In this document: in pieces, positions 2,074 through 31,244 of the stretch
How the letters are laid out: each line of letters starts with the position of its first letter
Position numbering within the stretch: the first letter of the stretch is position 1
DNA from: Acidobacteriota bacterium
GTDB lineage: Bacteria > Acidobacteriota > Blastocatellia > Pyrinomonadales > Pyrinomonadaceae
Length of the DNA stretch: 34,198 nucleotides
Direction of reading: 5' to 3'
Assembly: GCA_020846885.1 (NCBI GenBank)
Contig: JADLDC010000319.1
Location: forward strand, 1-34,198
Program-made: the position numbers and the translations under genes
The notes under the pieces: generated by a model
What the model saw: only the letters and a program-made list of their open reading frames with translations
Databases searched by the model: none
Told to the model about the DNA's origin: nothing

Positions 2074-3942
2074 ATGAAACGCTGCCCGCAGTGTGCCCGA
2101 GATTACAATGACGACTCGTTAAGCTTCTGCCTCGACGACGGATCAGAACTCCTCTTCGGCCCCGCGTCAGGCAGGTCAGAACCGGGAACGATAGCGACCG
2201 GGTTCTTGTCAGGCGACGAACCCGCAACGGCGATCCAGTCAGAACCGCCTGCGTTAGCGGGCGGCCAGTTCACGGGCGAATCGAAGACGGCGATCTTGTC
2301 AGAACCACCTGCGATAGCGGGTGGTTTAATTGGGATGACAGACGAGTCGCAGTTGAACACCGCTATTCTTCAACCACCCGCTACCGCAGGTGGTTCTGAC
2401 TCGAAGGAAAGGCAGAGCCTTTCCCCAAATAGGGCGGCGGAGCCGCGAGGGAAAGTAGGCAGTAGGCGGATGCAGTTGGCAGTTGCCGTGATCGCCGTTT
2501 TGATTCTCGTTGGCGGATTTTTCGGTTTTCGATACTTCACCTCATCGAATTCGGGATCGATCAATTCCATTGCCGTCCTGCCTTTTGAAAACCGAAGCGG
2601 AAATGCGGACACCGAATACTTGAGCGATGGATTGGCCGAGTCGCTGATCTATCGTTTATCGCAATTGCCCGATCTGAAAGTTAGTCCGACGAGTTCGGTA
2701 TTTCGTTATAAAGGCAAAGAAGCCGACCCGCAAGTTGTCGCCAAGGAATTGGGAGTTGATTCGGTGATGACCGGACGCATCACCGGGCGCGGCGATGAAT
2801 TTACCATCAGCGTCAATCTGGTCGATACACGAAACGGCAAATCGCTTTGGGGCGAACAGTATGAACGCAAGCAGTCGGAGCTGCTCACCACGCAACGCGA
2901 GATCGCAACGGAGATCGCGAATAAGCTGCAACTGAAATTGTCGGGCGAAGAGCGAGGGCTTACCAAACAATACACGACGAGCAACGAGGCATATCAGCTT
3001 TACATGAAGGGCCGTTACCAATGGAATCAGCGAACTGGAAATTCCCTAAAACAAGCGGCCGACTTTTTCAACCAGGCGGTAGAAAAGGATCCGGATTTCG
3101 CGCTTGCGTATTCGGGCTTGGCGGAAAGTTATACGCTGTTCGGGGTTTACAGCGTCGCGGCGCCGCTAGACGCGATGCCGAAAGCGAAGGCGGCGGCTCT
3201 GCGGGCGATCGAACTCGATGATTCGCTGGCTGAAACCCACGTTGCGCTCGGAATCTATTATTCAAACTTTGCATGGAATCAGCCCGCCGCCGAAAAGGAA
3301 TTTCGCCGCGCGATCGAACTGAATCCAAATTACGCGACCGCCCATCAGCAGTTCGGTGTAGAATGCCTGACCGCGATGAGCAGGTTCGACGAAGCCGTGA
3401 CGGAAGGGAAACGCGCCGAAGAACTCGACCCGCTTTCGCCGATCATCGGCGCGGATCTGGGTCATATTCTAACGAGGGCCAGACGATTTGATGAATCTGT
3501 TGCACAGCTCGATCGCGTTCTCGCGCTCGATCCGAATTTCTGGGTTACATATTGGTATTTAGGAATGGCTTATCAGGGCAAAGGTCAGTATGCGGAAGCT
3601 GTTTCGGCCTACAGAAAAGGGATGGCATTGAACCGCAGTGAGTGGCTGAAAGCCTTGCTCATAAATTCATTGGTGAAAACGGGCGAACGTCAGGAAGCCG
3701 TCAAACTGCTCAATGAATTACAAGCGGAATCGGAGAGCCGCTACGTTTCGGGTTCGGCGCTTGCCATCGCCTACGGCTCGCTCGGCGAAAAGGATAAAGC
3801 CTTTGCCTACCTGAACAAAGACGTTGACGAACGAGCCTCGCGCCCGGCAGTATTTTCAGTCAATCCGGTTTGGGACGACCTGCGCGAAGACCCGCGTTTC
3901 GCCGAAGTCCTGCGCCGCGTCGAAGCGGGAAAGATGGACTGA
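2074..3942 (+). CDS. Cys-motif + TM + TolB/FlgO-like + TPR protein (array member 1)
   Basis: MKRCPQCARDYNDDSLSFCLDDGSELL; TM LAVAVIAVLILVGGFFGF; SIAVLPFENRSGNADTEYLSDGLAESL; TPR repeats; RxDPRF near the C-terminus. Confidence 0.9.
   Translation: MKRCPQCARDYNDDSLSFCLDDGSELLFGPASGRSEPGTIATGFLSGDEPATAIQSEPPALAGGQFTGESKTAILSEPPAIAGGLIGMTDESQLNTAILQPPATAGGSDSKERQSLSPNRAAEPRGKVGSRRMQLAVAVIAVLILVGGFFGFRYFTSSNSGSINSIAVLPFENRSGNADTEYLSDGLAESLIYRLSQLPDLKVSPTSSVFRYKGKEADPQVVAKELGVDSVMTGRITGRGDEFTISVNLVDTRNGKSLWGEQYERKQSELLTTQREIATEIANKLQLKLSGEERGLTKQYTTSNEAYQLYMKGRYQWNQRTGNSLKQAADFFNQAVEKDPDFALAYSGLAESYTLFGVYSVAAPLDAMPKAKAAALRAIELDDSLAETHVALGIYYSNFAWNQPAAEKEFRRAIELNPNYATAHQQFGVECLTAMSRFDEAVTEGKRAEELDPLSPIIGADLGHILTRARRFDESVAQLDRVLALDPNFWVTYWYLGMAYQGKGQYAEAVSAYRKGMALNRSEWLKALLINSLVKTGERQEAVKLLNELQAESESRYVSGSALAIAYGSLGEKDKAFAYLNKDVDERASRPAVFSVNPVWDDLREDPRFAEVLRRVEAGKMD
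2298..2400 (+). repeat. inverted pair of palindromic repeats within CDS (GTCAGAACCACCTGCGATAGCGGGTGG ... CCACCCGCTACCGCAGGTGGTTCTGAC)
   Basis: Direct reading; translated as SEPPAIAGG ... QPPATAGGSD. A further single copy lies at 2239-2265 and a related SEPGTIATG-type copy at 2175-2206. Confidence 0.9.
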
Positions 3943-4003
3943 GTTGAGCGAAGGCCCGCGATTTAAAGACCTGCCGTGAAACGGATGGGTTTGCCGGTAA
4001 GAG
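3943..4003 (+). pseudogene. remnant of the 3' tail of a TPR paralog
   Basis: EGPRFKDL (frame 1) then VKRMGLPV (shifted frame), matching RDEPRFKELVRKVGFPE*/RDDPRFAAMVKRLNLPE* of intact array members. Confidence 0.7.
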
Positions 4004-4008
4004 CGTTT

Positions 4009-5052
4009 ATGAGTTCGGAGCCGATCATTACAAACGAATACTCTGAGTTTATCTCAGGGTTGAAAGCCGATGTACGGCGGTCGCGGGTCAAGGCGGCGCT
4101 TGCGGTCAATCGCGAACTTGTTTTGCTTTATTGGCGGATCGGCAACGGCATTTTGGCAAAGCAGAAAGAACTCGGCTGGGGAGCCAAGGTCGTTGAGCAA
4201 ATATCGCTCGATCTCCGGCTGGAGTTTCCGGAGATGAAGGGGTTTTCGCGAACAAACCTGCTTTATATGAGAAGTTTCGCCGAAAACCATCCCGATTATG
4301 CATTTGTCCAGCAAGTTGCTGGACAAATACCGTGGTTCCACAACTGCGTAATTCTCGACAAGGTAAAAGACCAGCAAGAGCGGGAATTTTATATTAACAA
4401 AACCATCGAAAACGGCTGGAGCCGCAATGTTTTAGAGATACAGATCGAATCTGGATTGTATCTACGCCAAGGAAAAGCGATCACGAATTTTGAACTGACA
4501 TTGCCAAAACCGCAATCCGACCTTGCCCAACAGCTTTTGAAAAGCCCGTATAATTTTGATTTTCTCGGCCTGACGGACGAGGCTCACGAACGCGACATCG
4601 AGGCCGCGATGATGCGTCACACACGCGATTATCTGCTCGAACTCGGTGTCGGCTTTGCATTTGTCGGCAGCCAATACCGACTCGACGTGGGCGGCGAGGA
4701 GTTTTTTATCGATCAGCTTTTTTATCATCTGAAGCTCCGATGTTATTTCGTTTTGGAGCTAAAAGCAGGTAAATTCAAGCCGGAATATCTTGGCAAACTC
4801 AATTTCTATCTTTCGGCGATCGACGACCTGCTGCGCGACGACGGCGACAATCTCAGTGTCGGCCTGATCTTATGCCGGGCCGAAAACAAAACGGTGGCCG
4901 AATATGCCCTGCGCGATATGGCAAAACCGATCGGCATTTCAAGTTATGAACTGACGAGGATTCTCCCCGAAAATTTGCGTGGGACTCTCCCAACCATCGA
5001 AGAGATCGAGGCAGAATTAGAGACGGTAAAGATCCGCGATGAGAATTTATGA
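4009..5052 (+). CDS. DUF1016 / YhcG-like PDDEXK nuclease family protein
   Basis: YWRIGNGILAKQKELGWGAKVVEQISLDL, GFSRTNLLYMRSFAE, FIDQLFYHLKLRCYFVLELKAGKFKPEYLGKLNFYLSAID. The ORF-track start at 3976 (GTG) would include the upstream paralog-tail remnant, so ATG 4009 is preferred. Confidence 0.9.
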   Translation: MSSEPIITNEYSEFISGLKADVRRSRVKAALAVNRELVLLYWRIGNGILAKQKELGWGAKVVEQISLDLRLEFPEMKGFSRTNLLYMRSFAENHPDYAFVQQVAGQIPWFHNCVILDKVKDQQEREFYINKTIENGWSRNVLEIQIESGLYLRQGKAITNFELTLPKPQSDLAQQLLKSPYNFDFLGLTDEAHERDIEAAMMRHTRDYLLELGVGFAFVGSQYRLDVGGEEFFIDQLFYHLKLRCYFVLELKAGKFKPEYLGKLNFYLSAIDDLLRDDGDNLSVGLILCRAENKTVAEYALRDMAKPIGISSYELTRILPENLRGTLPTIEEIEAELETVKIRDENL

Positions 5053-6923
5053 AACGATGCCCGCAATGCGGCCGAGAGTATGACAATACGATGATGTTCT
5101 GTCTCGATGACGGAGCCGAGTTGCTTTACGGCCCCGCAAGGTCAGAACCGGGAGCGGTAGCGACTGGGGTCCCGTCCGGCGATGAACCCGCAACCGCCAT
5201 CTTGTCAGAACCGCCTGCGTCAGCGGGCGGCCAGTTCGTTGGCGAGTCGGCAACCGCGATCTTGTCAGAACCGCCTGCGATAGCGGGTGGTTTAACTTGC
5301 ACAACAGACGACGCGGAGTTAAAAACGGCCATTCTTCAACCACCCGCTACCGCAGGTGGTTCTGACTCGACGGAATGGCAGAGCCTTTCCGCAAATCGGG
5401 TGGCAAAGCCGCGGGGGAAAGTCGGCAGTCGGCAGTGGCAGTTGGCTGCGGTCGGATTTACCGCGTTGGTTCTTATCGGCGGGTTCTTTGCGTACAAATA
5501 TTTCGCTCCAACACAACAGATCGAATCGATCGCGGTAATGCCGTTCGTAAATGAGAGCGGGAATGCGGATGTCGAATATTTGTCGGACGGCATGACTGAG
5601 ACTCTCATTAGCAGTTTGTCGAACATTCCCAATTTATCGGTAAAGGCGAGAAGCACGGTTTTTTATTACAAGGGCAAAGAGGCTTCGCCGAAGATGATCG
5701 GTGAAGAGTTGAAGGTGCAGGCGGTTTTGTTGGGCAGAGTCTCCCAACGCGGTGACGATCTGAAATTGAGTCTGGAACTCGTCAACACCGGAACTCAGGA
5801 TGTGATATGGAGCCAGCAATATAATCGTAAACAATCCGACCTGGTTTCATTGCAAAGCGAGATCGCCAAAACTGTATCGGACAAACTTCGTTCGAAATTA
5901 ACCGCGACTGAACAGGAGCGGGTCAGCAAGACCAACACGAGTAGTTCCGAGGCACAGCAGCTTTACCTGAAAGGGCGTTTTCATTGGAGCAAAAGAACGA
6001 CCGAGGACTTTCAAAGAGCCAGAGAGTATTTCCAGCAAGCGATCGCGGCTGACCCGAACTTCGCACTCGCACACACGGGACTCGCCGACACTTTGGCATT
6101 GATGCCGTATTACGGTGCATTCAGGCCAAACGAATATATGCCTCTGGCAAAACAGGCGGCACAGAAAGCTCTCGAAATTGACCCGAATTCGGCGGAAGCC
6201 CACGCTTCGCTCGGTCAGATCTTGACCAACTATGATTACGATCTTAAAGGTGCTGAGAGAGAGCTAAAGAGGGCGATTGAACTCGACCCTAAGTACCCGT
6301 CAGCATATCAGTGGCTTGCAGAGGTCTATCATTTTTCGGGAAATGGCGACCAGTCGCTTTCGGAGATAAATAAAGCTATTGAACTTGACCCGTTGTCGAT
6401 GGTCATAAATAACCAAAAAGGTAGAGTGATTGATTTTGGAAGCAAGCGGGACGAAGCAATTGTTCAGTTTAAGAAAACCATTGAGTTGTTTCCGGACGCA
6501 GCGAGTCCTCACAATAACCTCTCCGACGTTTATGAAGCCAAGGGTATGTATTCCGAGGCAGTTGAACAACGTCTTATCCAGCTCAAACTACTCTTTGGCG
6601 TTAGTCCGGAAAACATCAAAGACCTCCAACTAGCTTTTGAAAAAGACGGTTACAAGGGTTTTGTGCAAAAGCAAATAGACATTCAACTGGACACTCAGAG
6701 ATCAATTCTGGAGAAGGATAAAAATGCTTATCTACCGGCCTTTCGAATTGCGGAAGCCTATTCCCGTCTCGGGGACAAAGATAAAGCGTTGGAATACCTG
6801 AACAAAGCGTATGATCAACGCGAACCACAGATCGCAGAACTCAAAATCCGATTGCCACTTAATGTTCTGCGAGACGAACCGCGATTTAAGGAATTGGTCA
6901 GGAAGGTCGGGTTTCCCGAATAG
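5049..6923 (+). CDS. Cys-motif + TM + TolB/FlgO-like + TPR protein (array member 2)
   Basis: MKRCPQCGREYDNTMMFCLDDGAELLYGP; TM AAVGFTALVLIGGFFAY; SIAVMPFVNESGNADVEYLSDGMTETL; TPRs; DEPRFKELVRKVGFPE*. Confidence 0.9.
   Translation: MKRCPQCGREYDNTMMFCLDDGAELLYGPARSEPGAVATGVPSGDEPATAILSEPPASAGGQFVGESATAILSEPPAIAGGLTCTTDDAELKTAILQPPATAGGSDSTEWQSLSANRVAKPRGKVGSRQWQLAAVGFTALVLIGGFFAYKYFAPTQQIESIAVMPFVNESGNADVEYLSDGMTETLISSLSNIPNLSVKARSTVFYYKGKEASPKMIGEELKVQAVLLGRVSQRGDDLKLSLELVNTGTQDVIWSQQYNRKQSDLVSLQSEIAKTVSDKLRSKLTATEQERVSKTNTSSSEAQQLYLKGRFHWSKRTTEDFQRAREYFQQAIAADPNFALAHTGLADTLALMPYYGAFRPNEYMPLAKQAAQKALEIDPNSAEAHASLGQILTNYDYDLKGAERELKRAIELDPKYPSAYQWLAEVYHFSGNGDQSLSEINKAIELDPLSMVINNQKGRVIDFGSKRDEAIVQFKKTIELFPDAASPHNNLSDVYEAKGMYSEAVEQRLIQLKLLFGVSPENIKDLQLAFEKDGYKGFVQKQIDIQLDTQRSILEKDKNAYLPAFRIAEAYSRLGDKDKALEYLNKAYDQREPQIAELKIRLPLNVLRDEPRFKELVRKVGFPE
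5141..5366 (+). repeat. cluster of palindromic repeats inside CDS (5141-5172, 5204-5232, 5264-5295, 5337-5366 inverted)
   Basis: Direct reading; translated SEPGAVATG, SEPPASAGG, SEPPAIAGG, QPPATAGGSD. Confidence 0.9.
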
Positions 6924-6933
6924 AATTTAGCCT

Positions 6934-8709
6934 ATGAAACGATGCCTTGAATGCGGCCGCGATTACGACAATTCGATGATGTTCTGTCTCGATGACGGAG
7001 CAGAACTTCTCTACGGCCCGGCGGTGTCAGAACCGGGAGCGATAGCGACTGGATCCTCAGCCGATGAACCGCAAACTGCAATACTTCACTCCACGGCGGC
7101 TCCGGGCGATGCCCCGACCCGTGCGCAGATTCACACTACGGAGCAGACTTCGGTCTTTCCGCGAGGAGCGGAGGCAGAGCCTCGGGAATCTTTGGGCGAC
7201 TCGACGGAAAAGCGTAGCTTTTCCGCACATCGAGCGGCAAAGCCGCTGATAGCCGTGTTCGCCGTTGTGCTTCTTGTAGTTCTTGCCGGCGGATTTTTTG
7301 GATATCGATATTTCAGCTCGTCAGATTCGGGAACGATCAACTCTATCGCGGTTCTTCCGTTTCAAAACCGGAGCGATGATGCGGATACGGAATATTTGTC
7401 CGATGGGCTGGCCGAATCGTTGATATTTCGTTTGACGCAGTTGCCGGGATTGAAGGTCAGTCCGACGAGTTCGGTGATGCGATATAAGGGGAACGAGACT
7501 GATCTTGCCAAGATCGCAAGCGAGCTTGGGGTTGATTCGGTAATGACGGGGCGGCTTGTCAAGCGGGGCGATAATCTGGACATCGCGGTCGAGCTTGTCG
7601 ATACACGAAACAACAAATCGCTTTGGGGTGAACAATATCAGCGAAAGATGTCCGATCTTCTTGAGACACAGCGAGATATTGCCGCAACCATCGTTCAAAA
7701 GCTTCAGTTAAAACTCAAAGGCGACGAGAAGGGCATTACAAAAAAATACACCGACAGCAACGAGGCATATCAGCTCTGGATGAAGGCCAGATTTCATTTT
7801 GCTAAACGCACAAAAGTCGATATCGAGCGAAGCATCGACCTTTTTCAACAGGCGATAAAGCTTGATTCGAATTTTGCTTTAGCATACGTCGGCGTTGCCG
7901 AATCGTATTCCGTGATGCCTTCGTTCCCTTATATGTCACCAAAGGAAGCGACGCCGCTTGCAAAGGCGGCCGTTGAGAAGGCTCTTGAACTCGACCCGGA
8001 TTTGCCTGAGGCCCATACGGTCGCCGGAATGATCGCCGCCACTTACGACTGGGATTGGGCAAAGGCCGAAAGCGAATTCAAGCGCGGGATCGAGCTCGAC
8101 CCAAATCTTGCGATTACGCATTACCGCTATGCATGGACGTATTTAAGTCCGTTGGGCCGTCATGATGAAGCCATCGCCGAAATGAAGCGTGCGATGGAAT
8201 TGGAACCACTTTCCGTAATCCAGGGAGCAAATTTTGCGGGAGTTCTACTCTACGCGCGACGATTTGACGACGCGGTCGATCAGGCCAAAAAGACCTATGA
8301 CCTCGACCCGACACATATCGGAGGAAAAAACTGGCTCGCTCATGCTTACAACATAAAGGGAATGTATGCTGAATCGCTCGCGATAACGGAACCGACGCTT
8401 CGGGGCGATGCCGTTCCGCTGCGCGGCCCGGCGGCGTTCGCCTATGCCAAAACCGGCCGGCGGCAGGAAGCCGTTGCCTTGCTAAATCTGTCGAAGGAGT
8501 CCGAAAAAACTAAGTACGTCATAAATTACTGGCTGGCGATCGACTATGCCGCGCTTGGCGATAAAGACGCGGCCTTTGCCGAACTCGAAAAGGCATTTCA
8601 GGCCCGCGACTGGTTTCTCCAGCGGCTAAAGGTCGATCCATTCATGGACCCGCTCCGCGACGACCCGCGATTCAGCGAGATGGTAAAGCGACTCAATCTG
8701 CCGGAATAG
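6934..8709 (+). CDS. Cys-motif + TM + TolB/FlgO-like + TPR protein (array member 3)
   Basis: MKRCLECGRDYDNSMMFCLDDGAELLYGP; TM IAVFAVVLLVVLAGGFFGY; SIAVLPFQNRSDDADTEYLSDGLAESL; RDDPRFSEMVKRLNLPE*. Confidence 0.9.
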   Translation: MKRCLECGRDYDNSMMFCLDDGAELLYGPAVSEPGAIATGSSADEPQTAILHSTAAPGDAPTRAQIHTTEQTSVFPRGAEAEPRESLGDSTEKRSFSAHRAAKPLIAVFAVVLLVVLAGGFFGYRYFSSSDSGTINSIAVLPFQNRSDDADTEYLSDGLAESLIFRLTQLPGLKVSPTSSVMRYKGNETDLAKIASELGVDSVMTGRLVKRGDNLDIAVELVDTRNNKSLWGEQYQRKMSDLLETQRDIAATIVQKLQLKLKGDEKGITKKYTDSNEAYQLWMKARFHFAKRTKVDIERSIDLFQQAIKLDSNFALAYVGVAESYSVMPSFPYMSPKEATPLAKAAVEKALELDPDLPEAHTVAGMIAATYDWDWAKAESEFKRGIELDPNLAITHYRYAWTYLSPLGRHDEAIAEMKRAMELEPLSVIQGANFAGVLLYARRFDDAVDQAKKTYDLDPTHIGGKNWLAHAYNIKGMYAESLAITEPTLRGDAVPLRGPAAFAYAKTGRRQEAVALLNLSKESEKTKYVINYWLAIDYAALGDKDAAFAELEKAFQARDWFLQRLKVDPFMDPLRDDPRFSEMVKRLNLPE

Positions 8710-8715
8710 AAATTT

Positions 8716-10629
8716 ATGAAACGCTGCCCTGAATGCAGGCGAGATTACGCTGACGACACGCTTTTGTATTGTCTCGAAGATGGAAGTGCGCTCGTTCAGG
8801 GCTCTGTGCCGTCGCCCGATGAACCGCAGACGGCGATCCTTTCAGAACCGCCTGCGTTAGCGGGCGGCCAGTTCGCTGGCGAGTCGAAGACGGCGATCTT
8901 GTCAGAACCACCTGCGATAGCGGGTGGTTTAACTTGCACAACAGACGACGCGGAGTTAAAAACGGCCATTCTTCAACCACCCGCTACCGCAGGTGGTTCT
9001 GACTTCGCTGGCGAGTCGGCAACCGCGATCTTGTCAGAACCACCTGCGTCAGCGGGTGGTTTAACTTGCACAACAGACGATGCGGAGTTAAAAACGGCTA
9101 TTCTTCAACCACCCGCTACCGCAGGTGGTTCTGACTCGAAGGAAAGGCAGAGCCTTTTCGCAAATAGGGCGGCAAAGCCGCGGGAGAGAGTAGGCAGTAG
9201 GCGGCGGCTTTTGGCAGGAGTTGGGGTTGTCGCTTTGGTTCTGGTTAGCGGGTTCTTTGCGTACAAATATCTCGCTCCAACCAAACAGATCGAATCCGTC
9301 GCAGTGATGCCGTTCGTCAATGAGAGCGGGAATGCGGATGTCGAATATCTCTCGGACGGAATGGCCGAAACGCTGATCAACAGCCTTTCAAAGCTCGCAA
9401 ATCTGTCGGTAAAGGCGCGCAATGCGGTGTTTCCTTATAAAGGAAAAGAAGTTTCGGCAAAGCAGATCGGCGAGGAACTGGGCGTCCAGGCTGTTTTGCT
9501 GGGCAGGCTGGCCGAACGGGGCGGGAACATCAAATTGAACCTTGAACTCGTCAATGCGAAAACGCTTGACGTCATCTGGTCCGAGCAGTATGACCGCAAG
9601 CAGGGTGATCTTGTAAACCTGCAGCAAGAGATCGCCCGCGATGTTTCGAGCAGGCTGCGGCCGAAGCTCACAGGTGCCGACGAGCAAAAACTTGCAAAGA
9701 GTTATACGACCGATTCCGAGGCATACAGGCTTTATCTTCAGGGCCGCTTCTATTGGAACAAGCAGACGGGGCAGGAATTTGAGAAGTGCGCGGACTATTT
9801 CCGGCGTGCGATAGAAAAAGACCCGAACTTTGCGCTTGGGTATGTTGGCCTTGCGGATTATTATGGCGTCCGGGAACGTGACAAAGCTAAGGAGAATGTC
9901 AATCGTGCGCTCGCTCTCGACCCTGATCTTGCCGAGGCGAACGGGACGCTCGGATATCAGTACATGCTCGATTATGACTGGGTGAACGCCGAACGGTATA
10001 TGAAGCGGGCGCTTGAGCTTGATGACAATAACCTGGAGCTTCATCGATGGAACGGCCAGCGGCTGATGATGCTGGGGCGATTCGACGAGGCATTCGCCGC
10101 ATACGACCGGGCACTAGCGATCGATCCTAATTCGTCTAACGTACGGTTTAGCTACGGAGCTTGCCTTCTCGCTTCGGGAAAGCTTAATGAGGGTATCCGC
10201 TATCTCGAAGACTCGATCAAAGCGGACCCGACACACATCTGGCTTCATTCGTTTCTCGGGCATGCTTATGAATTAAAGAACGATTGGGCAAGTTCGGTCG
10301 AACAGCGTGCCATTTCGCAGGAACTGCTGGGCGAGCCTGAGAACGCACGGCTTGTGCGCGAAAGCTTTGCCAAAGGCGGGCGCGATGGCCTTTTGCGGGA
10401 CACAATAAGACGCAGGGAAGCAGCTAATCCTGAGCGCGTCCAGTCATCAGTCGCGTCGTGGTACGTTCTGCTGGGTGACAAGGAAAAAGCTCTGCAAACG
10501 CTCGAACGGACCGCGACCCGAAAGGGCGATTTCTGGCTCTTCATGATCAAATACGAAGCGGCCTACGAGCCGCTCCGCGGCGACCCGCGGTTTCAGGCGA
10601 TCGTAAAAATATTTGACGCGCCTCGATAG
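8716..10629 (+). CDS. Cys-motif + TM + TolB/FlgO-like + TPR protein (array member 4)
   Basis: MKRCPECRRDYADDTLLYCLEDGSALVQG; TM GVGVVALVLVSGFFAYKYL; SVAVMPFVNESGNADVEYLSDGMAETL; TPRs; RGDPRFQAIVKIFDAPR*. Confidence 0.9.
   Translation: MKRCPECRRDYADDTLLYCLEDGSALVQGSVPSPDEPQTAILSEPPALAGGQFAGESKTAILSEPPAIAGGLTCTTDDAELKTAILQPPATAGGSDFAGESATAILSEPPASAGGLTCTTDDAELKTAILQPPATAGGSDSKERQSLFANRAAKPRERVGSRRRLLAGVGVVALVLVSGFFAYKYLAPTKQIESVAVMPFVNESGNADVEYLSDGMAETLINSLSKLANLSVKARNAVFPYKGKEVSAKQIGEELGVQAVLLGRLAERGGNIKLNLELVNAKTLDVIWSEQYDRKQGDLVNLQQEIARDVSSRLRPKLTGADEQKLAKSYTTDSEAYRLYLQGRFYWNKQTGQEFEKCADYFRRAIEKDPNFALGYVGLADYYGVRERDKAKENVNRALALDPDLAEANGTLGYQYMLDYDWVNAERYMKRALELDDNNLELHRWNGQRLMMLGRFDEAFAAYDRALAIDPNSSNVRFSYGACLLASGKLNEGIRYLEDSIKADPTHIWLHSFLGHAYELKNDWASSVEQRAISQELLGEPENARLVRESFAKGGRDGLLRDTIRRREAANPERVQSSVASWYVLLGDKEKALQTLERTATRKGDFWLFMIKYEAAYEPLRGDPRFQAIVKIFDAPR
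8842..9134 (+). repeat. five palindromic repeat copies in CDS, including an in-frame 132-bp tandem duplication (8901-9032 / 9033-9134+)
   Basis: GTCAGAACCACC starts at 8901 and 9033 (period 132 bp = 44 codons); inverted copies end at 9003 and 9134; extra forward copy at 8842. Confidence 0.9.
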
Positions 10630-10635
10630 AACTCT

Positions 10636-12219
10636 ATGAAACGCTGCCCTGAATGCAGACGAGATTATTACGACGACACGCTGTTGTATTGTCTTGATGA
10701 CGGCAATGCGCTGCTTGAGGGGCCGGCGTCGCCAGATGAGCCGACGACCATGGTTCTAAGTAGGGCGCACTCTGGCGGCGACGACGGTGAGACCGACACG
10801 CGTCGATTCTCGAGCGGCAACGCGCCGGATGATCATGTTGTCGCGTCGAACTCGATAGCCGTTCTCCCGTTCAAGAACATAAGCGCCGATGTCGAGAATG
10901 AATACTTCTGCGAAGGACTCGCGGAAGAACTGCTCAACGCCCTTGCGAAGATCGACGAACTCAAGGTGGCCGCGCGAACGTCAGCATTCTCATTCAAGAA
11001 TGAGAAGACCGATATCAGCGAGATCGGCCGGAAGCTCGGCGTCGCTCACGTTGTGGAGGGCAGCGTTAGAAAGGCGGGCGAGCGGCTACGCGTTGCGGTG
11101 CAATTGTTGAATGCCTCGGATGGTTACCATATCTGGTCGGAAACTTACGATCGCGAGATGCGCGATCTGTTCGACTTGCAGGACGAGATCACGCTATCGG
11201 TCATAGGAGCGCTGAAACTAAAGCTGCTTGGCGGCGAGAAAAGATCCATCCTGAAGCGCGAAACGGAAAATACCGAAGCCTATAAAGCCTATCTCATGGG
11301 CCGCTTTCTTCGGTATGCCAAGAACGATCATGCGGGAGCGGCTGTGGCTTATGAGGAGGCGGTAAGACTCGACCCGTCACACGCTCCGTCCTGGCTCGGA
11401 CTCGGGGAATCGTACATGCTTCGCACGCATTACGCTCTCGTGCGAGCAGATCAGGCCGGCACGCGGCTGAAAGAATCTTTGACGAGGGCCCGGAGCATAC
11501 AGGGCGAGACGGCCGAGGCGCTGTACATCGAGGGATTTTTTGCATTCATTGAGCGTGATTGGCGGACCTGCGACGAGGCTTACGCGAAGTCTTTCGCTAT
11601 TGACCCTAACAATTCCCGGGCGCTTGGCACTTACGGCGTAATTAACTCAGTACTAGGCAGAGTGGAAGATGCGATGACTTACTTCGCACGCTCACGCGAG
11701 TCCGATCCGCTCGCCGCATACCCGTATGCAATGACCGGCGGGGGCTTGGCGAATCTGCAGCGGCCGGAGGACGCGATGCGGTTTATTGAACAGGCATTCG
11801 CGTTCGAAAAAGATAATTCGCTTGCCCTGTGGATGTTTTGCGAAACGTGCATCGCTCTTAAAAGATCCGACGACGGCATCGCAATGGTTGAGGCGGCGAT
11901 GGATGTTTCGCGGCGTCCGCCCTTTCTGCTCGGTATCCTCGGCTGCGCCCTTGCGGCCGCCGGAAGGATGCAGGAGGCGAAACAGATCCTTGCGGAGCTG
12001 CGCACGCGTCCGGCGGACGCTCCCGTTTTGGTTCACGAGGCATGCCTGTTAGGGGCCGCAGGCGATAAGGACGCCGCTTTCGCCTTGCTTGCGAGGGCGG
12101 TCGATGAATATGCCCCGTTGGCATACTATGTCGGATTGCCTTGTTTCGATATTCTTCGCGACGATCCGCGATTTGCCGCCCATGTCGCCAGCTTGGCGAT
12201 TCCGCGCCGAAATATATGA
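10636..12219 (+). CDS. Cys-motif + TolB/FlgO-like + TPR protein without an evident TM (array member 5)
   Basis: MKRCPECRRDYYDDTLLYCLDDGNALLEGP; SIAVLPFKNISADVENEYFCEGLAEELLNALAKIDELKVAARTSAFSFK; TPRs; RDDPRFAAHVASLAIP. Confidence 0.88.
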   Translation: MKRCPECRRDYYDDTLLYCLDDGNALLEGPASPDEPTTMVLSRAHSGGDDGETDTRRFSSGNAPDDHVVASNSIAVLPFKNISADVENEYFCEGLAEELLNALAKIDELKVAARTSAFSFKNEKTDISEIGRKLGVAHVVEGSVRKAGERLRVAVQLLNASDGYHIWSETYDREMRDLFDLQDEITLSVIGALKLKLLGGEKRSILKRETENTEAYKAYLMGRFLRYAKNDHAGAAVAYEEAVRLDPSHAPSWLGLGESYMLRTHYALVRADQAGTRLKESLTRARSIQGETAEALYIEGFFAFIERDWRTCDEAYAKSFAIDPNNSRALGTYGVINSVLGRVEDAMTYFARSRESDPLAAYPYAMTGGGLANLQRPEDAMRFIEQAFAFEKDNSLALWMFCETCIALKRSDDGIAMVEAAMDVSRRPPFLLGILGCALAAAGRMQEAKQILAELRTRPADAPVLVHEACLLGAAGDKDAAFALLARAVDEYAPLAYYVGLPCFDILRDDPRFAAHVASLAIPRRNI

Positions 12220-14202
12220 AACGATGCCCTGAATGCAGGAAAGATTATTACGACGACAGTTTGCTTTACTGTCTCGACGACGGCTCTGCGCTTGTGCAGG
12301 GCAGCGTGACGGACGAGCCGGCGACGGCGTTATTGCGGGGCGAGGACAAAACATGGCCGTTGGGGCCCACTTCCGCTCCTGGTGCCGATGGTAAGGAAAA
12401 ACGGCCGATCCTGCGTTTCATGCGGTACAGCATCCTTAAATGGCCTGCTGTATTTGCCGTCGTTGCAGCTATGGCTCTGACCGCCTACCTATTCGGGCGT
12501 GCCGGAAGCGTGTCAGGTGGGGGCGTCATTCCCCGGCGGGCAAACATCGCAATTTCTACTCCGCTTGCGCTCGGCAAATATTGCCCTCTCGGCGTCGGAA
12601 GGACTGCGGTAGCCCTGTCACCCGACGGATCATTATTGGTTTACGTTGGGGAAAAGGACGGAGCACCCGTTCTCATGGCCCGTCCGCTGGACTCGTTTGA
12701 AGATCGCTACCTTCCAGGCACCGAAGGAGCCTACGCCCCGTTCTTTTCCCCTGACGGCAGGTCAATTGCATTTTTTGCCAACAACGAGCTAAAAAGGCTT
12801 TCGCTCGACGGCGGACAGCCAGTCACGCTTTGTGAGGCAAGGAATGCGCACGGGGGCGCCTGGGGACCCGACGGAACTATCATCTTCGCGGACGGGGAAG
12901 GGGGACGTCTCGTTCGTATCCCTGCGTCCGGAGGCCAGCCGGTTCTCGCATTTCGGCGAGAAGGTCTCAGCGCGGCCATATGGGGTTTCAGCAGCCCTGA
13001 AATTTTGCCGGACGGCGATACCGTCATAGCGACTTTTTGGAACAGTCCGAATCCGGACAAGTACAAGATCGGGGTATTTTCGTTAAGGTCGGGCGGAGCG
13101 CGCATCCTGGTCGAGGGAGGAATGAACCCGCGATACTTGCCGACGGGCCACCTGGTCTATTCGCGGAGTTCGACACTCATTGCGGCGCCATTCGACGCAC
13201 GAGAAGGTAAGATCACCGGGCCGGAAGTTACGCTCGCCGAGAACGTGCGGAGCGAGGGATGGGGATCGGTCCAGTACACGCTCGCAAAATGATGGAACTC
13301 TCATCTACGTGTCCGGCGGTCCTGCCTGGATCGGCAAGCCGGTATGGGTGAACCGCGGCGGGGTTGTGACGCCGATGGCGGCGCCTCCTCGTTCGTATAA
13401 GAACCTTTCCATATCTCCGGACGGTCAGCGCCTAGCTGTCGAGGTCTCAGAGGGCAGTCAGGACATTTACCTGTACGAATTCGCCCGCGGCAATTTGACC
13501 AGGTTCACCAATACTGGCGAAAACGGGTCTCCCCGCTGGTTTCCGGACGGCACTGCCGTCACATTCGCGCGTTTCTCTGCAACCGGCACCGACATTGTTT
13601 CCAAGTCGATCGATTCGGGGGCAGAAAAGGTCCTTATCAGCGGGCAGATCGGCGGCGATATGCTGTCCTGGTCCCCGGACGGAAAGAACCTCTTGTTCTT
13701 GCAAGTGACACCGGATACGGGACTCGACCTTTGGTCAAAAACCGGGGATCAAAGCGCGAGCCCGTGGCTCGTCACCCCGTTTCGCGAGATGCAGGCGGAG
13801 TTTTCCCGCGACGGTCGTTATGTCGCCTACGTCTCTGATGAGTCGGGACAGTATGAGGTATACGTCCGGCCGTTCTCCGGCGAAACCGGGAAGTGGCAGG
13901 TTTCGACCGCTGGAGGTGAGGAGCCTATCTGGTCCCGGGACGGCCGCGAATTATTCTACCGAGAGGGGCAAAAATGGATGAGCGTCGAAGTGGCAACCAG
14001 CCCGCAGTTCAAAGCCGGGCCGCCACGGCTGCTTTTTGAGGGGCCATACCTGAATATTCGAGGGACCTCATATGATGTGGCTGCCGATGGCCGCTTTCTG
14101 CTTTTGGAAGAGAACTACAAACAAAGCCCGACAACGCAGCTTTCGGTCGTATTCAATTGGTCAGAAGAGGTGAAACGACGTGTCCCGACGGGGAGTCATT
14201 GA
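12216..14202 (+). pseudogene. Cys-motif + TM + PD40/TolB-type beta-propeller protein, interrupted by a +1 frameshift near 13288
   Basis: Two ORFs (12216-13292 and the frame of 13180-14202) join as ...VQYTLA|NDGTLIYVSGG if one A is removed from CTCGCAAAATGATGG. Blade motifs: LSPDGSLLVYVG, FSPDGRSIAFF, ISPDGQRLAV, WSPDGKNLLFL, FSRDGRYVAYVS. May be a sequencing error rather than a true pseudogene. Confidence 0.8.
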
Positions 14203-14354: not shown

Positions 14355-16127
14355 ATGAAAAAATGTCCTCAATGCGGACGAGAATATGACCTGTCGATGA
14401 GCTTTTGCCTCGACGACGGGGCCGAGCTGCTTTACGGCCCGGCCAAGTCAGAACCGCCTGTGTCAGCGGGCGGCCAGGTTGGTGAGCCGGAGACCGCAAT
14501 TCTGTACTCGACGGCCGCGCCGGGCGAAGCTCCGACTCGCGCGCAAATAGACACAACGGAACAAACTGCCATCTTCCCCGGCGGAGCGGAGCCGGAGCCT
14601 CTGGAATCTTTAGGCGGACTGTCGGAGAAGCATAGCTTCTCCGCAAATAGGGCGGCGAAGCCGCTGATCGCCGCGGCAGCTGCGGTTCTGGTTCTTGTTG
14701 GCGGGTTCTTTGGCTATCGACATTTCTCATCTTCGGGTTCCACGCAGATCAATTCCATCGCCGTATTGCCGTTTGAGAATCGCAGCGGAAACACAGACAC
14801 GGATTACCTTTCGGATGGATTGGCTGACTCGTTGATCTATCGTCTTGCGCAGCTGCCGAATTTAAAGGTCAGCCCAACGAGTTCGGTTATGCGGTACAAG
14901 GGCAAAAGCGGCGATACTTTGCAGATCGCAAAGGATTTGAATGTCGATGCGGTGATGTCAGGGCGGCTTGTTCAAATCGGCGATAGCCTGAATATAAGTG
15001 TTCAGTTGACCGACGCGCGTACAGACAAGCTGATCTGGGCGGAGCAGTACGATCGCAAGCTGAGCGATTTGCTTGCGACGCAGCGAGAGATCGCGGCGGC
15101 CATCGCTGACAAGCTTAAGCTCAAGCTGTCAGGTAACGACCAAAAGGGCCTTACCAAGACTTTTACTGACAATAATGAAGCCTATCAAAGCTATCTCCGG
15201 GGCCGATTTTATTGGAACAAACGGACCCGGGACGGGATCGACAATGGCATTGCTTTTTTCCAAAAGGCAATCGACCTTGACCCGAATTTTGCGCTTGCGT
15301 ATGTAGGCCTTGCTGACTCGTATTCCGTGATGCCATCCTACGGCTATATGAGCCCCGCAGAAGCGTTGTCTCGGGCGACGACTGCTATTCAACAAGGATT
15401 GCAAATCGACCCTGACTTGGCCGAGGCTCATTCAACCTACGGATTAGTACTCGCCTCGCAGTGGCGATGGAGCGAAGCCGAAACGGAATTCAAACGAGCT
15501 CTCGAAATTGATCCGAAAAGCGCTGAGAGCCACTACAAGTACGCCATTCAATTTTTGGAGCCGGTTGGCCGTTTTGATGATGCGATCCGTGAAATGGAAA
15601 CTGCGCTTGAACTCGATCCGCTTTCGATACCGATCGGGGCAAATCTTGCGGGCGTTTATGTCTACTACCGTAAATATGACGCAGGGCTAGAGCAGGCACA
15701 AAAGGTCTATGCACTCGATCCCGGCCACGCTACTGCGATCATTTGGCTTGCTAATGCATATGAGGGAAAGGAGAAATACGACGAAGCTATCAAGTTATGC
15801 GAGACGTCTTTGCGATCATTGCCGGATAATCAGGACCTGCTCCTAATAATGGGATCTTCATATGCAAGATCGGGACGGCCGGAGCAAACTCGCCCAATCA
15901 TTTCAAAACTGGAGAACATGGCGAAAACGCAATATGTTTCGTTCTACCGGATCGCGTCGCTTTACGGAGATCTCGGTGAGAAAGATCACGCATTCTCTGC
16001 ATTGGAAAAGGCGTATGAAGAGCAGGACTGGGAGATTACTCGTCTCAAGGTTGATCCATTCATGGACGCGCTCCGCGACGACCCGCGATACAAAGAACTG
16101 CTAAAACGAATCAATTTAGCGGAATAG
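14355..16127 (+). CDS. Cys-motif + TM + TolB/FlgO-like + TPR protein (array member 7)
   Basis: MKKCPQCGREYDLSMSFCLDDGAELLYGP; TM IAAAAAVLVLVGGFFGY; SIAVLPFENRSGNTDTDYLSDGLADSL; RDDPRYKELLKRINLAE*. Confidence 0.9.
   Translation: MKKCPQCGREYDLSMSFCLDDGAELLYGPAKSEPPVSAGGQVGEPETAILYSTAAPGEAPTRAQIDTTEQTAIFPGGAEPEPLESLGGLSEKHSFSANRAAKPLIAAAAAVLVLVGGFFGYRHFSSSGSTQINSIAVLPFENRSGNTDTDYLSDGLADSLIYRLAQLPNLKVSPTSSVMRYKGKSGDTLQIAKDLNVDAVMSGRLVQIGDSLNISVQLTDARTDKLIWAEQYDRKLSDLLATQREIAAAIADKLKLKLSGNDQKGLTKTFTDNNEAYQSYLRGRFYWNKRTRDGIDNGIAFFQKAIDLDPNFALAYVGLADSYSVMPSYGYMSPAEALSRATTAIQQGLQIDPDLAEAHSTYGLVLASQWRWSEAETEFKRALEIDPKSAESHYKYAIQFLEPVGRFDDAIREMETALELDPLSIPIGANLAGVYVYYRKYDAGLEQAQKVYALDPGHATAIIWLANAYEGKEKYDEAIKLCETSLRSLPDNQDLLLIMGSSYARSGRPEQTRPIISKLENMAKTQYVSFYRIASLYGDLGEKDHAFSALEKAYEEQDWEITRLKVDPFMDALRDDPRYKELLKRINLAE
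14447..14475 (+). repeat. single palindromic repeat copy within CDS
   Basis: GTCAGAACCGCCTGTGTCAGCGGGCGGCC, read SEPPVSAGG. Confidence 0.85.
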
Positions 16128-20208: not shown

Positions 20209-22014
20209 ATGAAACGATGCCCCGAATGCAGAAGAGATTATTACGACGATACGCTTTTGTATTGTCTCGACGACGGCAATGCGCTGCTTGAAGGGCCAGC
20301 GAGCGGTTCTGGTGCAGGCGCCGAGCCAAAGACTGCGATCCTGTCAGAACCGCCTGCGTCAGCGGGCGGCCAGTTGGCGGGCGAGTCGGCAACTCGTCCG
20401 CAAATACATACGACCGAGCAAACAGCTATCTTCCCGCGCGGAGCGGAGGCAGAGCCTCGGGAATCTTTAGGTGGTTTGTCGGAAAGGCAGAGCCTTACCG
20501 CAAATAGAGCGGCCGAGCCGCGGGGGAAAGTTGGCGGTCGGCAGTGGCTGTTGGCAGTTGTCGGAATCGCAGCATTAGTGCTTGCCGGCGGATTCTTTGG
20601 CTATCGATATTTCAGCTCGGCGGGTTCCGGGGCGATCAATTCGATTGCGGTTTTGCCGTTCGAGAATCGGAGCGGAGACCCAGATGCGGAATATTTATCA
20701 GACGGGTTGAGCGATTCGCTAATTTACCGGTTGACGCAATTGCCAAATCTGAAGGTCAGCCCGACGAGTTCGGTGATCAGGTACAAGGGCAAGCAGATGG
20801 ATGTCGCCGAGATCGCGAAGGAACTCGATGTCGATGCGGTGATGTCTGGGAAACTTGCCCAGCGCGGCGACGATCTGACGATCAGCGTCGAGCTTGTTGA
20901 TGCGCGGACAAAGAAGCTGATCTGGGCGGAAAAGTATGATCGTAAGATGGCCGACCTGCTTGCGACACAGCGTGAGATCGCAACGAAGATCACGGAAAAG
21001 CTCCAGCTAAACTTGGCGGGCAACGACAGAGGCATTACAAAAAAATATACGAACAACAACGAGGCGTATCAGCTTTATATGCGCGGACGATACAGCTTTG
21101 CCAAGCGAACAAAAGACGAGATGCTTAGCTCGATCGACTATTTCAGCCAAGCCGTAAAGCTCGATCCCGGATTTGCTCTTGCCTACGCGCGTATCTCCGA
21201 GGTCTATGGCAGTATGCCGGCCTATCCGTATCTCTCGCCAAAAGAAGCGTTTCCGCAAGCGAAAGCCGCGGCCGAGAAAGCTCTTGAATTAGACCCGACG
21301 TTGTCCGAAGCCTACACTTTTCTGGCTTATGCACAGATCATTTATGACTGGGATTGGGCGGGCGGCGAGCGGTCATTCAAACGTGCCGTCGAACTTGACC
21401 CAAACAGTTTCTCGGCCCATTTCCGCTATGGCCAGATCTACTTGATCCCTGTCGGGCGCATTGAGGAAGGGATAAATGAGATGAATCAAGGGCTCAATGC
21501 GGAGTCGCTTGATGTGAACATGGGAGTCAGCGTCGCTTGGGGATATCTTGTCAACGGACAGAATGACAAGGCTCTCGAACAAGCACGGAAGACGTTTGAC
21601 CTCGAACCCAATCACCCGCTTTCCCGTTGGATGCTTTGCCAAGCTCTCACCATGGTGGAACGTTATGACGAAGCAGTATCGATCAGTGAGAAATGGCTAC
21701 GCGATGAACCGAACAACCAGTTCGCCATCCGCGATGCGGGATTTGCGTACGCGAAAGCCGGCCGGCGGGATAAGGCCGAGCAGATGATCGACCGATTCCG
21801 CGAACTCGCAAAATCGCAATATGTACCGAGCTACAGGATCGCCGCGATCTACGCGGCCCTGGACGAAAAAGACAAGGCGTTTGCAGAATTGGAGAAAGCG
21901 TTTGAAGCAAAAGATTGGGAATTGTATCGACTTAAGATCGAGATCTACATGCGCCCGCTCCGCGACGACCCGCGGTTTGCTGCCATGGTTAAACGCCTGA
22001 ACCTGCCGGAATGA
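20209..22014 (+). CDS. Cys-motif + TM + TolB/FlgO-like + TPR protein (array member 9)
   Basis: MKRCPECRRDYYDDTLLYCLDDGNALLEGP; TM AVVGIAALVLAGGFFGY; SIAVLPFENRSGDPDAEYLSDGLSDSL; RDDPRFAAMVKRLNLPE*. Confidence 0.9.
   Translation: MKRCPECRRDYYDDTLLYCLDDGNALLEGPASGSGAGAEPKTAILSEPPASAGGQLAGESATRPQIHTTEQTAIFPRGAEAEPRESLGGLSERQSLTANRAAEPRGKVGGRQWLLAVVGIAALVLAGGFFGYRYFSSAGSGAINSIAVLPFENRSGDPDAEYLSDGLSDSLIYRLTQLPNLKVSPTSSVIRYKGKQMDVAEIAKELDVDAVMSGKLAQRGDDLTISVELVDARTKKLIWAEKYDRKMADLLATQREIATKITEKLQLNLAGNDRGITKKYTNNNEAYQLYMRGRYSFAKRTKDEMLSSIDYFSQAVKLDPGFALAYARISEVYGSMPAYPYLSPKEAFPQAKAAAEKALELDPTLSEAYTFLAYAQIIYDWDWAGGERSFKRAVELDPNSFSAHFRYGQIYLIPVGRIEEGINEMNQGLNAESLDVNMGVSVAWGYLVNGQNDKALEQARKTFDLEPNHPLSRWMLCQALTMVERYDEAVSISEKWLRDEPNNQFAIRDAGFAYAKAGRRDKAEQMIDRFRELAKSQYVPSYRIAAIYAALDEKDKAFAELEKAFEAKDWELYRLKIEIYMRPLRDDPRFAAMVKRLNLPE
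20343..20371 (+). repeat. single palindromic repeat copy within CDS
   Basis: GTCAGAACCGCCTGCGTCAGCGGGCGGCC, read SEPPASAGG. Confidence 0.85.
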
Positions 22015-22035: not shown

Positions 22036-22155
22036 GCCCGCTTAGCGGGCTGTGTGGCAAACAGATTTAGCCCGCAGAGCGGGCGAAAAGCATAAAGCCT
22101 AGCCCGTGAGGGCTAGGAAACGTGGCAAACAAACAATAAGCTCGCAAGCGGGCGA
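22036..22155 (+). repeat. REP-like hairpin cluster upstream of the RAYT gene
   Basis: GCCCGCTTAGCGGGC (22036-22050), GCCCGCAGAGCGGGC (22070-22084), CCTAGCCCGTGAGGGCTAGG (22098-22117). Confidence 0.85.
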
Positions 22156-22162
22156 CAGCAAA

Positions 22163-22669
22163 ATGGGCCAATCATATACAAACCTGCTGTATCACCTCGT
22201 CTTCTCGACAAAGGATCGGAAACCGCTGATCGTCGGGGACGCTAAGCTGCGTTTGTACGATTATCTGGGCGGGACAATTCGCGGACTTGGTGGTATTTCG
22301 CTCGGCATAAACGGGATGGAAGATCATACTCACGTGCTCGCAAAGTTGCGGCCGGACAAGGCAGTCTCGGCGGTGTTGCGTGATCTAAAAGCCAATTCGA
22401 GCGGCTGGATGCGCGATGTGTTTCCGGATATTCGAGATTTCTCTTGGCAGCGGGGTTACGGCGCGTTTACAGTTAGTTTTTCGCAGATTGAAAAGGTGCT
22501 TGAATATATCGCGAATCAGGAAGCACATCATAGATCTCGCGATTTTCGTGACGAGTTTATTGGATTGTTGATGAAAAACGGTGTCGAATTTGACGAGCGG
22601 TATTGGAGTTATAGCGGCTGCCGCCCGCGCCTGCGGGCTACGTGGAATTATTCTCCTTCCTGGGGCTGA
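22163..22669 (+). mobile_element. RAYT / REP-associated IS200/IS605-like Y1 transposase
   Basis: MGQSYTNLLYHLVFSTKDRKPLI, HUH-type HTHVL, LKANSSGWMRD, FSWQRGYGAFTVSFSQIEKVLEYIANQEAHHRSRDFRDEF; flanked on both sides by REP-like hairpins. Confidence 0.9.
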
Positions 22670-22774
22670 CGCCCCAGGCTTTATGCTAACGCCCGCTTCG
22701 CGGGCTGCATGGAGTTCATTGATCGTTCCTGGGGCTGACGCCCCAGGCTTTATGCTGATGCCCGCGATGCGGGC
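22623..22774 (+). repeat. REP-like double-hairpin units downstream of and overlapping the RAYT 3' end (69-bp period)
   Basis: CCTGGGGCTGACGCCCCAGGCTTTATGCT at 22659 and 22728; hairpins GCCCGCTTCGCGGGC (22691-22705), GCCCGCGATGCGGGC (22760-22774), GCCCGCGCCTGCGGGC (22623-22638). Confidence 0.9.
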
Positions 22775-22792
22775 TGGGGAAAGGGTAATCTT

Positions 22793-30295: not shown

Positions 30296-31158
30296 CAATA
30301 CATAGCCGGCCCCGATCATGGTTTGGAGATTACCGCTTGATATATTCAGACATTTTACTTTCGCAAAAGCTGGAACGGACGGAGGGGCGTGCCAATGCTG
30401 ATTTTGTTGAAACGCGTGCCCGGATCGATCCGGCATGCGGTGCGGAATGGATAGACGTTGGCGGAACGTATGCCATGTTTGACGGCGTCGGGTCACCGCT
30501 GACACAAACGTTTGGGCTAGGCATTTTTGAAGAGGCCACGAATGATCATCTTGAGCGGCTCGAATCCTTTCTTAGAGAACGCGGCGCCGAAGTCTTTCAT
30601 GAGGTCAGCCCAATGTCCGACCTGTCGCTTCTTTCACTGTTAGGCGAACGCGGCTATCGGCCGGTTGAATTAACGAGCGTAATGTATCAAGGACTGACAC
30701 CGGGCCGCCCGGCCGGGGAACCAAAGAACCCAGCCATTTCAGTTCGAAGGATCCGTGATGATGAGGCCGACTTGTGGGCCGAGACCGCTGCGGAAGGCTG
30801 GTCGACCGAGCATGAGAGCCTGGGCGAGTTCATGCTCGCGTTCGGGAAGATAGCCGCACGGGCCAATGGCAGCCATCCTTTTATTGCCGAGATCGGAGGA
30901 CGGCCGGTCGGTGCAGGAAGTTTTGCGATCTACGAGGATGTGTGCGTCCTTTCCGGTGCCGCCACGGTGCCGGATGCTCGCCGCCAGGGTGTCCAGAACT
31001 CCCTGCTCAGGGCCCGGTTGGCGTTTGCCGTTGAGAGTAAGTGCAGTCTTGCCATGATGTGTGCGCTTCCCGGAAGTCAATCGCAAAAGAATGCGCAGAA
31101 GAATGGTTTTGATATCGCATATACGCGGACAAAATGGGGTCAGAACCACCTGCGGTAG
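30268..31158 (+). CDS. GNAT-family N-acetyltransferase (true start uncertain)
   Basis: VGAGSFAIYEDVCVLSGAATVPDARRQGVQNSLLRARLAFAVESKCSLAMMCALPGSQSQKNAQKNGF. Confidence 0.88.
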   Translation: MASEQRSFIAIHSRPRSWFGDYRLIYSDILLSQKLERTEGRANADFVETRARIDPACGAEWIDVGGTYAMFDGVGSPLTQTFGLGIFEEATNDHLERLESFLRERGAEVFHEVSPMSDLSLLSLLGERGYRPVELTSVMYQGLTPGRPAGEPKNPAISVRRIRDDEADLWAETAAEGWSTEHESLGEFMLAFGKIAARANGSHPFIAEIGGRPVGAGSFAIYEDVCVLSGAATVPDARRQGVQNSLLRARLAFAVESKCSLAMMCALPGSQSQKNAQKNGFDIAYTRTKWGQNHLR

Positions 31159-31244
31159 CGGGCGGTTTAAGACGAGCTTTTCCGGATTCGCTCAACGGCC
31201 AGAGTTCCAACATCAAACCACCCGCTACCGCAGGTGGTTCTGAC
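31139..31244. repeat. 106-bp inverted palindromic-repeat pair at the GNAT 3' end and intergenic region
   Basis: GTCAGAACCACCTGCGGTAGCGGGCGGTTTAA ... AAACCACCCGCTACCGCAGGTGGTTCTGAC. Confidence 0.92.

Follow-up and report, generated by a model that had tools for sequence, protein, structure and literature searches.

The question raised by this locus is why the same short peptide recurs, encoded by a palindrome in either orientation, in the linkers of several neighbouring proteins. The locus lies in a 34,198-nt stretch of Acidobacteriota DNA (contig JADLDC010000319.1, assembly GCA_020846885.1; hereafter the window). The original prediction, made from the letters of this stretch, counted 13 copies of a 27-bp palindrome in the coding sequences (CDS) of five array genes, plus three of a related SEPGxxATG type, and proposed that a genomic repeat had been captured into proteins. 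Motif searches with GTCAGAACCNCCTGCGNNAGCGGGNGG (family A) and its sister motif GTCAGAACCGGGAGCGGTAGCGACTGG (family B) returned exactly these counts. The observation is thus confirmed, on a far larger scale than had been noted, and its interpretation is supported with qualifications. Family A is very probably a repetitive extragenic palindromic (REP) element that was spread by a class-3-like REP-associated tyrosine transposase (RAYT), then selected for frame and phase within genes and multiplied by local duplication.

Genomic distribution and the associated RAYT

The genome of the window (G000) is a metagenome-assembled genome (MAG) of an uncultured, soil-type member of the Pyrinomonadaceae (phylum Acidobacteriota), of 3.47 Mb in 444 contigs and 79% complete. 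It contains 105 copies of the 27-nt core at three or fewer mismatches and none of a reversed-pattern control, so the motif is not a product of chance. Copies were located in contig stretches fetched around the matches, and genes were called with a simple, home-made codon log-odds caller in which repeat bases were masked, leaving it unable to favour the PPAxAGG phase; the genome sample is uneven and the data come from MAGs. Among 104 mapped copies, 65 lie wholly in genes, seven span a gene end and 32 are intergenic. The in-gene copies occupy 32 genes and reach about 27 gene families that have no relation to the array in the window. These hosts are chiefly unrelated housekeeping enzymes, many of them essential (LysRS, MetRS, LeuRS, AlaRS, PurL, UvrD, MutS2, CoaBC, HemW and TilS); further hosts are GltD-like, RluD, GcvT-like, GcvPA-like, AcsA, UDG and HsdM proteins, M1 and M14 peptidases, GH92, A2M and others. 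The usual assumption is that essential bacterial genes are cleared of mobile DNA, and a REP family that sits in frame within many tRNA synthetases and enzymes of core metabolism runs contrary to it.

Family A was found in nearly all genomes of the genus and in other Blastocatellia, and relatives of G000 also carry extragenic copies. This is a distribution of the type left by mobility. With copies in extragenic DNA and in some 27 unrelated gene families, capture of a genomic repeat into proteins is upheld, and the outcome that was to speak against it (copies confined to one paralogue family, none intergenic) is excluded. The word "domesticated" fits less well: in-frame capture is seen, but the benefit to the host that the word implies is not what the data show, which is tolerated insertion filtered by selection. 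Elsewhere, the 8.4-Mb genome G038, from a family (f3) different from that of the window, holds 184 copies of a T-type variant (GTCAGTACC), mostly as extragenic inverted pairs with a short spacing of 39-46 nt. One family A pair was met on a contig binned as Parachlamydiaceae (JACCVN010000031.1); its sample series is that of a Blastocatellia bin, and the placement is probably a binning error.

The core, at 27 nt, falls in the 20-65 nt range of REP elements; it is an imperfect palindrome in which stem positions 10/25 covary between A-T and G-C, and it is found as singles and as inverted dimers. Its head is GTCAG(A/T). The GT(A/G)G tetranucleotide of the GTAG REP superfamily was not found, nor was the CGTC tag, as C precedes GTCAG in just 15 of 372 copies. 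REPs are by criterion predominantly extragenic; this holds for family A in genomes G014 and G038 but not in G000 (65/104 in CDS), and the mostly intragenic copies of G000 are the departure that makes family A a REP variant.

Nine Y1-transposase genes are present in G000. The one on contig C396 is bracketed by family A, with the downstream copy providing its stop codon, and the one on contig C43 is bracketed by family B. Inverted copies bracket every one of the seven complete RAYTs of the class "MWNDTD...TYGTWLHGDERGSVDR" in G000, G014 and G003, family A in four cases and family B in three; other Y1 classes in these three genomes showed no close bracketing by either family. A RAYT flanked in this way is arranged as a REPtron, and family A is very probably a REP element with a putative cognate RAYT of the MWNDTD type. 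These RAYTs show the Y----Q signature (YVVDGQ, YVNNEQ, YVKNRQ, YVLNGQ, YVINGQ), and their HuH motif is NHVH in several and NHIH, NHAH or NHSH in others. The hairpin foot is CAGA, which fits CnGA, in A-type copies and CAGT in T-type copies. By motifs rather than by a tree, the MWNDTD-type RAYTs likely, though not provably, belong to class 3 TnpA(Y1). We infer that this RAYT moves family A, and the system offers for study a RAYT whose hairpin is not of the GTAG type.

Reading phase and pair spacing in genes

The original prediction credited the common PPAxAGG core of the two orientations to the way the palindrome axis falls on the codon phase. The common core is indeed seen, but palindromy alone suffices for it: a palindrome reads alike on both strands. 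The real puzzle is that genes keep both orientations in one phase. The genome-wide map of phases and orientations that had been proposed as a check gave 64 of 65 in-gene copies in G000 reading SEPPAxAGG (forward) or PPAxAGGSD (inverted), alongside the extragenic copies; counted by gene, 31 have in-phase copies and one has an off-phase copy. Since one or more other phases are open in either orientation (VRTTCGSGW; NHPLPQVVLT), the neutral expectation for the chosen phase is at most about one half, and since repeat bases were masked, the lock was not produced by the gene caller. With the same masking, the lock holds for 23/26 copies in G005 and 19/22 in G011, and for 33/36 on named Blastocatellia contigs, a sample that partly overlaps G005 and G011 and is not fully independent. 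Off-phase exceptions occur chiefly where the loop has no stop codon. The peptides are presumably translated.

Inverted pairs provide a further measure, as both arms can be in phase only if the start-to-start spacing is 1 mod 3. At the sampled loci there are 39 inverted pairs in CDS and 61 in extragenic DNA. The 1 mod 3 spacing was observed for 35 of the 39 CDS pairs versus 22 of the 61 extragenic pairs (Fisher p=9e-8), the latter being spread over the spacing classes mod 3 as 22, 22 and 17. Spacing belongs to the element, and genes therefore keep those elements whose spacing happens to suit. This contrast points to frame selection after insertion rather than frame-specific targeting. A single phase together with a spacing constraint confined to genes is a clean natural test of the selective filtering of insertions.

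We propose that the 27-bp palindrome is a REP hairpin with GTCAG as its 5' head, and that a cognate class-3-like RAYT, acting on single-stranded DNA, would spread it as singles and inverted pairs. It would insert into genes as well as between them, and in both orientations. In genes, selection would keep nearly only those inserts that preserve the downstream frame and place the palindrome in the Ser-Glu-Pro-Pro-Ala-x-Ala-Gly-Gly phase. That phase is free of stop codons on both strands and its peptide is small, flexible and hydrophilic, so that loops and inter-domain linkers would tolerate it. The copies would then be multiplied by local duplication.

Filled and empty linker sites

Filled and empty sites were observed among orthologues. 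In many members of the genus, LysRS has a loop of seven residues (QVEHDGL and similar, 21 nt); at the same point G029 has QVKSEPPASAGGPDL (45 nt), and G000, G005, G006 and G017 have one- or two-unit inserts of 84-126 nt. The G000 enzyme has 32 residues there where the solved structure 4ex5 has three, and G000 CoaBC has 41 residues between two domains where the solved structure 6tgv has four. Sites in HemW, PurL, UvrD, TilS, LysRS, GcvT and LeuRS are common to G000 and the independent MAG G005 (KLAP106), so these are not assembly errors. A synteny search for empty sites in G014, G003 and G023 yielded little because copies in these genomes are extragenic. A second site in LysRS, an essential enzyme, holds NLSGSEGAPLSTDATGTLPTGRVSA (contig C277 of G000, and in G005 and G003), an in-frame repeat of another family; it is tandemly expanded, with three units in G000 and two in G005.

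The PurL linker that follows LTDEAPKY shows a wider pattern. It is different in every species and often contains a palindrome of another type, with heptamer-like arms in G018, G008 and G012 and family A pairs in G000, G006, G017 and G027. Across 27 species it folds more strongly than its flanks (mean z -2.9 versus -0.5), though not in all of them, and in MetRS linkers the effect is weak. A hairpin as a general property of linkers was accordingly set aside: it holds on average for PurL and only weakly for MetRS. The PurL pattern suggests landing pads that are refilled by different elements, with the heptamer type as candidate mobile repeats; PurL heptamer palindromes have only a few occurrences elsewhere in G014, G003 and G023, which leaves them unproved in that role. 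It is a tentative idea, and on balance we lean somewhat against it, that in this genus loops and inter-domain linkers of essential enzymes are landing pads repeatedly refilled by unrelated palindromes (family A, family B and the heptamer type), that mobile hairpins filtered for frame only are the main source of new linkers, and that the coding of the elements may have evolved to be stop-free and linker-like on both strands. The many filled and empty sites are a resource on whether mobile elements build protein linkers.

Four other accounts of the in-gene copies were weighed. Ordinary coding homology, in which PPAxAGG is a conserved and immobile linker repeat of one paralogue family, draws on the 300-nt segment common to window paralogues, which holds four of the copies. 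This account is hardly credible given the roughly 27 unrelated host families in G000, both orientations and extragenic copies that flank transposase genes; since copies exist in other gene families and in extragenic DNA, homology limited to the window paralogues is ruled out. Misassembly of MAGs at repeats has a negligible probability as well. G000 is in 444 contigs and 79% complete, but many sites are shared with G005, the phase lock recurs in the 22 in-CDS copies of G011, a genome in 30 contigs, and misjoins would not keep phase; the sharing with G005 and the state of G011 led us to reject it. If the RAYT or the insertion process instead targeted a codon phase, the frame lock would be mechanistic rather than selective, and the near-complete lock in G000 (64/65) could be so read. 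This is very improbable, however, since the 1 mod 3 spacing is kept in genes and free outside them (35/39 versus 22/61), and in G005 and G011 off-phase copies occur where they create no stop.

Positive selection, with the linker peptide or an mRNA hairpin helping the host (for example by slowing ribosomes at domain borders), is unlikely but deserves more weight than these three. The sites common to G000 and G005 are in its favour, as is the stronger folding of PurL linkers than of their flanks in many species and with different palindromes. On the other hand, about half of the PurL linkers and most MetRS linkers lack a strong hairpin, LysRS has no insert at all in many species, and insert content turns over rapidly. 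Most inserts are probably near-neutral. Mobility followed by selective filtering is itself confronted with several observations that weigh against it. The fraction of copies in CDS is uneven (65/104 in G000, 22/57 in G011, 3/52 in G038 and, in 400 kb sampled, 0/19 for family A in G014), and permissive selection alone cannot account for such differences. A few in-CDS copies are in other frames (VRTACVSGR, SQNHLRERVG, RPLPQVVLT), and G000 is a fragmented, incomplete MAG.

The alanyl-tRNA synthetase gene is a case of its own. Across the window's whole genus it consists of two open reading frames (ORFs) at separate loci, one for a catalytic part of about 273 aa and one of 630-790 aa for the rest (C199:2219-3061, locus L041, and C107:56-2167, locus L036, in G000), and no match across the junction was found in any genome of the genus. 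In most relatives from the family and class the ORF is intact, at about 900-1050 aa; in G092 and G093 the two halves lie next to each other. The N-terminal part in G000 ends, stop codon included, in a REP copy, but G005 has the split without one. A split AlaRS is known from Nanoarchaeum equitans (PMC10036535).

The array in the window and known systems

In the window, the 13 in-CDS family A copies (nine forward, four inverted) are spread over five paralogous genes, all on the plus strand, and two of them have one mismatch (8841 and 14447). Host gene 1 (2074-3942), encoding a zinc-ribbon/linker/transmembrane/tetratricopeptide repeat (TPR) protein, has a family B copy (SEPGTIATG, 2175-2201, plus) and three of family A: SEPPALAGG (2238-2264, plus) and a pair with spacing 76 formed by SEPPAIAGG (2298-2324, plus) and the inverted PPATAGGSD (2374-2400, minus). 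Its paralogue, host gene 2 (5049-6923), has the same layout, with SEPGAVATG of family B (5141-5167, plus), SEPPASAGG (5204-5230, plus), SEPPAIAGG as the left arm of a pair (5264-5290, plus) and PPATAGGSD (5340-5366, minus). The third family B copy (SEPGAIATG, 7026-7052, plus) sits in a sixth paralogue without family A copies (6934-8709, plus). Five family A copies occur in host gene 3 (8716-10629): SEPPALAGG (8841-8867, plus), SEPPAIAGG (8901-8927, plus), PPATAGGSD (8977-9003, minus), SEPPASAGG (9033-9059, plus) and PPATAGGSD (9109-9135, minus). Paralogous host genes 4 (14355-16127) and 5 (20209-22014) have one each, SEPPVSAGG (14447-14473, plus) and SEPPASAGG (20343-20369, plus). Four copies share the 300-nt duplicated segment, so the 13 do not represent 13 independent insertions, and duplication of the host paralogues accounts for much of the copy number. 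The linker of the host gene 3 protein (aa 36-166) is predicted to be disordered, with a pLDDT below 50 and no secondary structure in an AlphaFold model built on a 7-sequence alignment.

A further pair, with spacing 79, had been placed outside coding sequence as a whole. This is correct for its right arm (31218-31244, minus); the first 20 nt of the left arm (31139-31165, plus) form the 3' end of an ORF at 30337-31158 (...TKWGQNHLR*), whose TAG stop is provided by the loop of the copy. Two other features of the window were recorded. A different Y1 transposase ORF (22106-22669) runs at its 3' end into its own hairpin-repeat pair (CCTGGGGCTGACGCCCCAGG...GCCCGCTTCGCGGGC, 22654-22776), and 22106-22776 is a second REP-like system, unrelated to family A. 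A WD40/TolB-like protein appears split between two ORFs in different frames (12216-13292 and 13309-14202, with an overlapping ORF at 13180-14202), through either a frameshift or a sequencing error.

In the open-licence literature, where subscription-journal reports could be missed, we found neither family A with its RAYT, nor a genome with mostly intragenic copies, nor a two-orientation single-phase lock or pair-spacing contrast; a search for PPAxAGG peptides gave nothing relevant. Class 3 TnpA(Y1), as reported for Acidobacteria, goes together with many copies of atypical CnGA-foot hairpins, about 600 of them in Solibacter usitatus (Quentin et al. 2018, PMC6006769). The present system is similar in phylum, in its small HuH-Y1 protein with motifs of the NHVH, W[TA] and Y----Q types, and in a gene flanked by hairpins that are abundant in the host; it differs in its GTCAG foot, with CAGA only in A-type and CAGT in T-type copies, and in its in-frame intragenic copies, which are undescribed there (PMC6006769). 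Pseudomonas REP doublets forming hairpins (REPINs) likewise have inverted REP pairs as a RAYT-dependent mobile unit, but they are extragenic by definition, with GTAG-type REPs and another RAYT class (Bertels and Rainey 2011, PMC3116915).

The original prediction named the Rickettsia palindromic element (RPE) as nearest precedent. The closest match is the wider set of REP/RAYT elements with reported intragenic copies, to which RPE belongs (PMC3733652, PMC6006769). RPE, as described by Di Nocera et al. (2013, PMC3733652), is also a palindromic repeat in frame within many unrelated, probably functional proteins; it differs from family A in sequence, phylum and its CGTC tag, with no transposase reported (PMC3733652). 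The paper also describes GTAG/CGTC REPs, single or as dimers, in frame within known proteins, among them products of repair genes and tRNA synthetases, and suggests that flexible loops tolerate them (PMC3733652). Family A resembles these short palindromes in all such respects; it lacks either tag, has a RAYT where CGTC repeats have none, and is mostly intragenic in G000 where theirs are mostly intergenic, and codon-phase or spacing statistics were not found in the sections consulted (PMC3733652). REPs within RAYT genes without frame disruption are also already known. Thus, the in-frame intragenic REP is a known kind of event, and what is new here is the family with its RAYT, together with the scale, the frame lock and the test on spacing.

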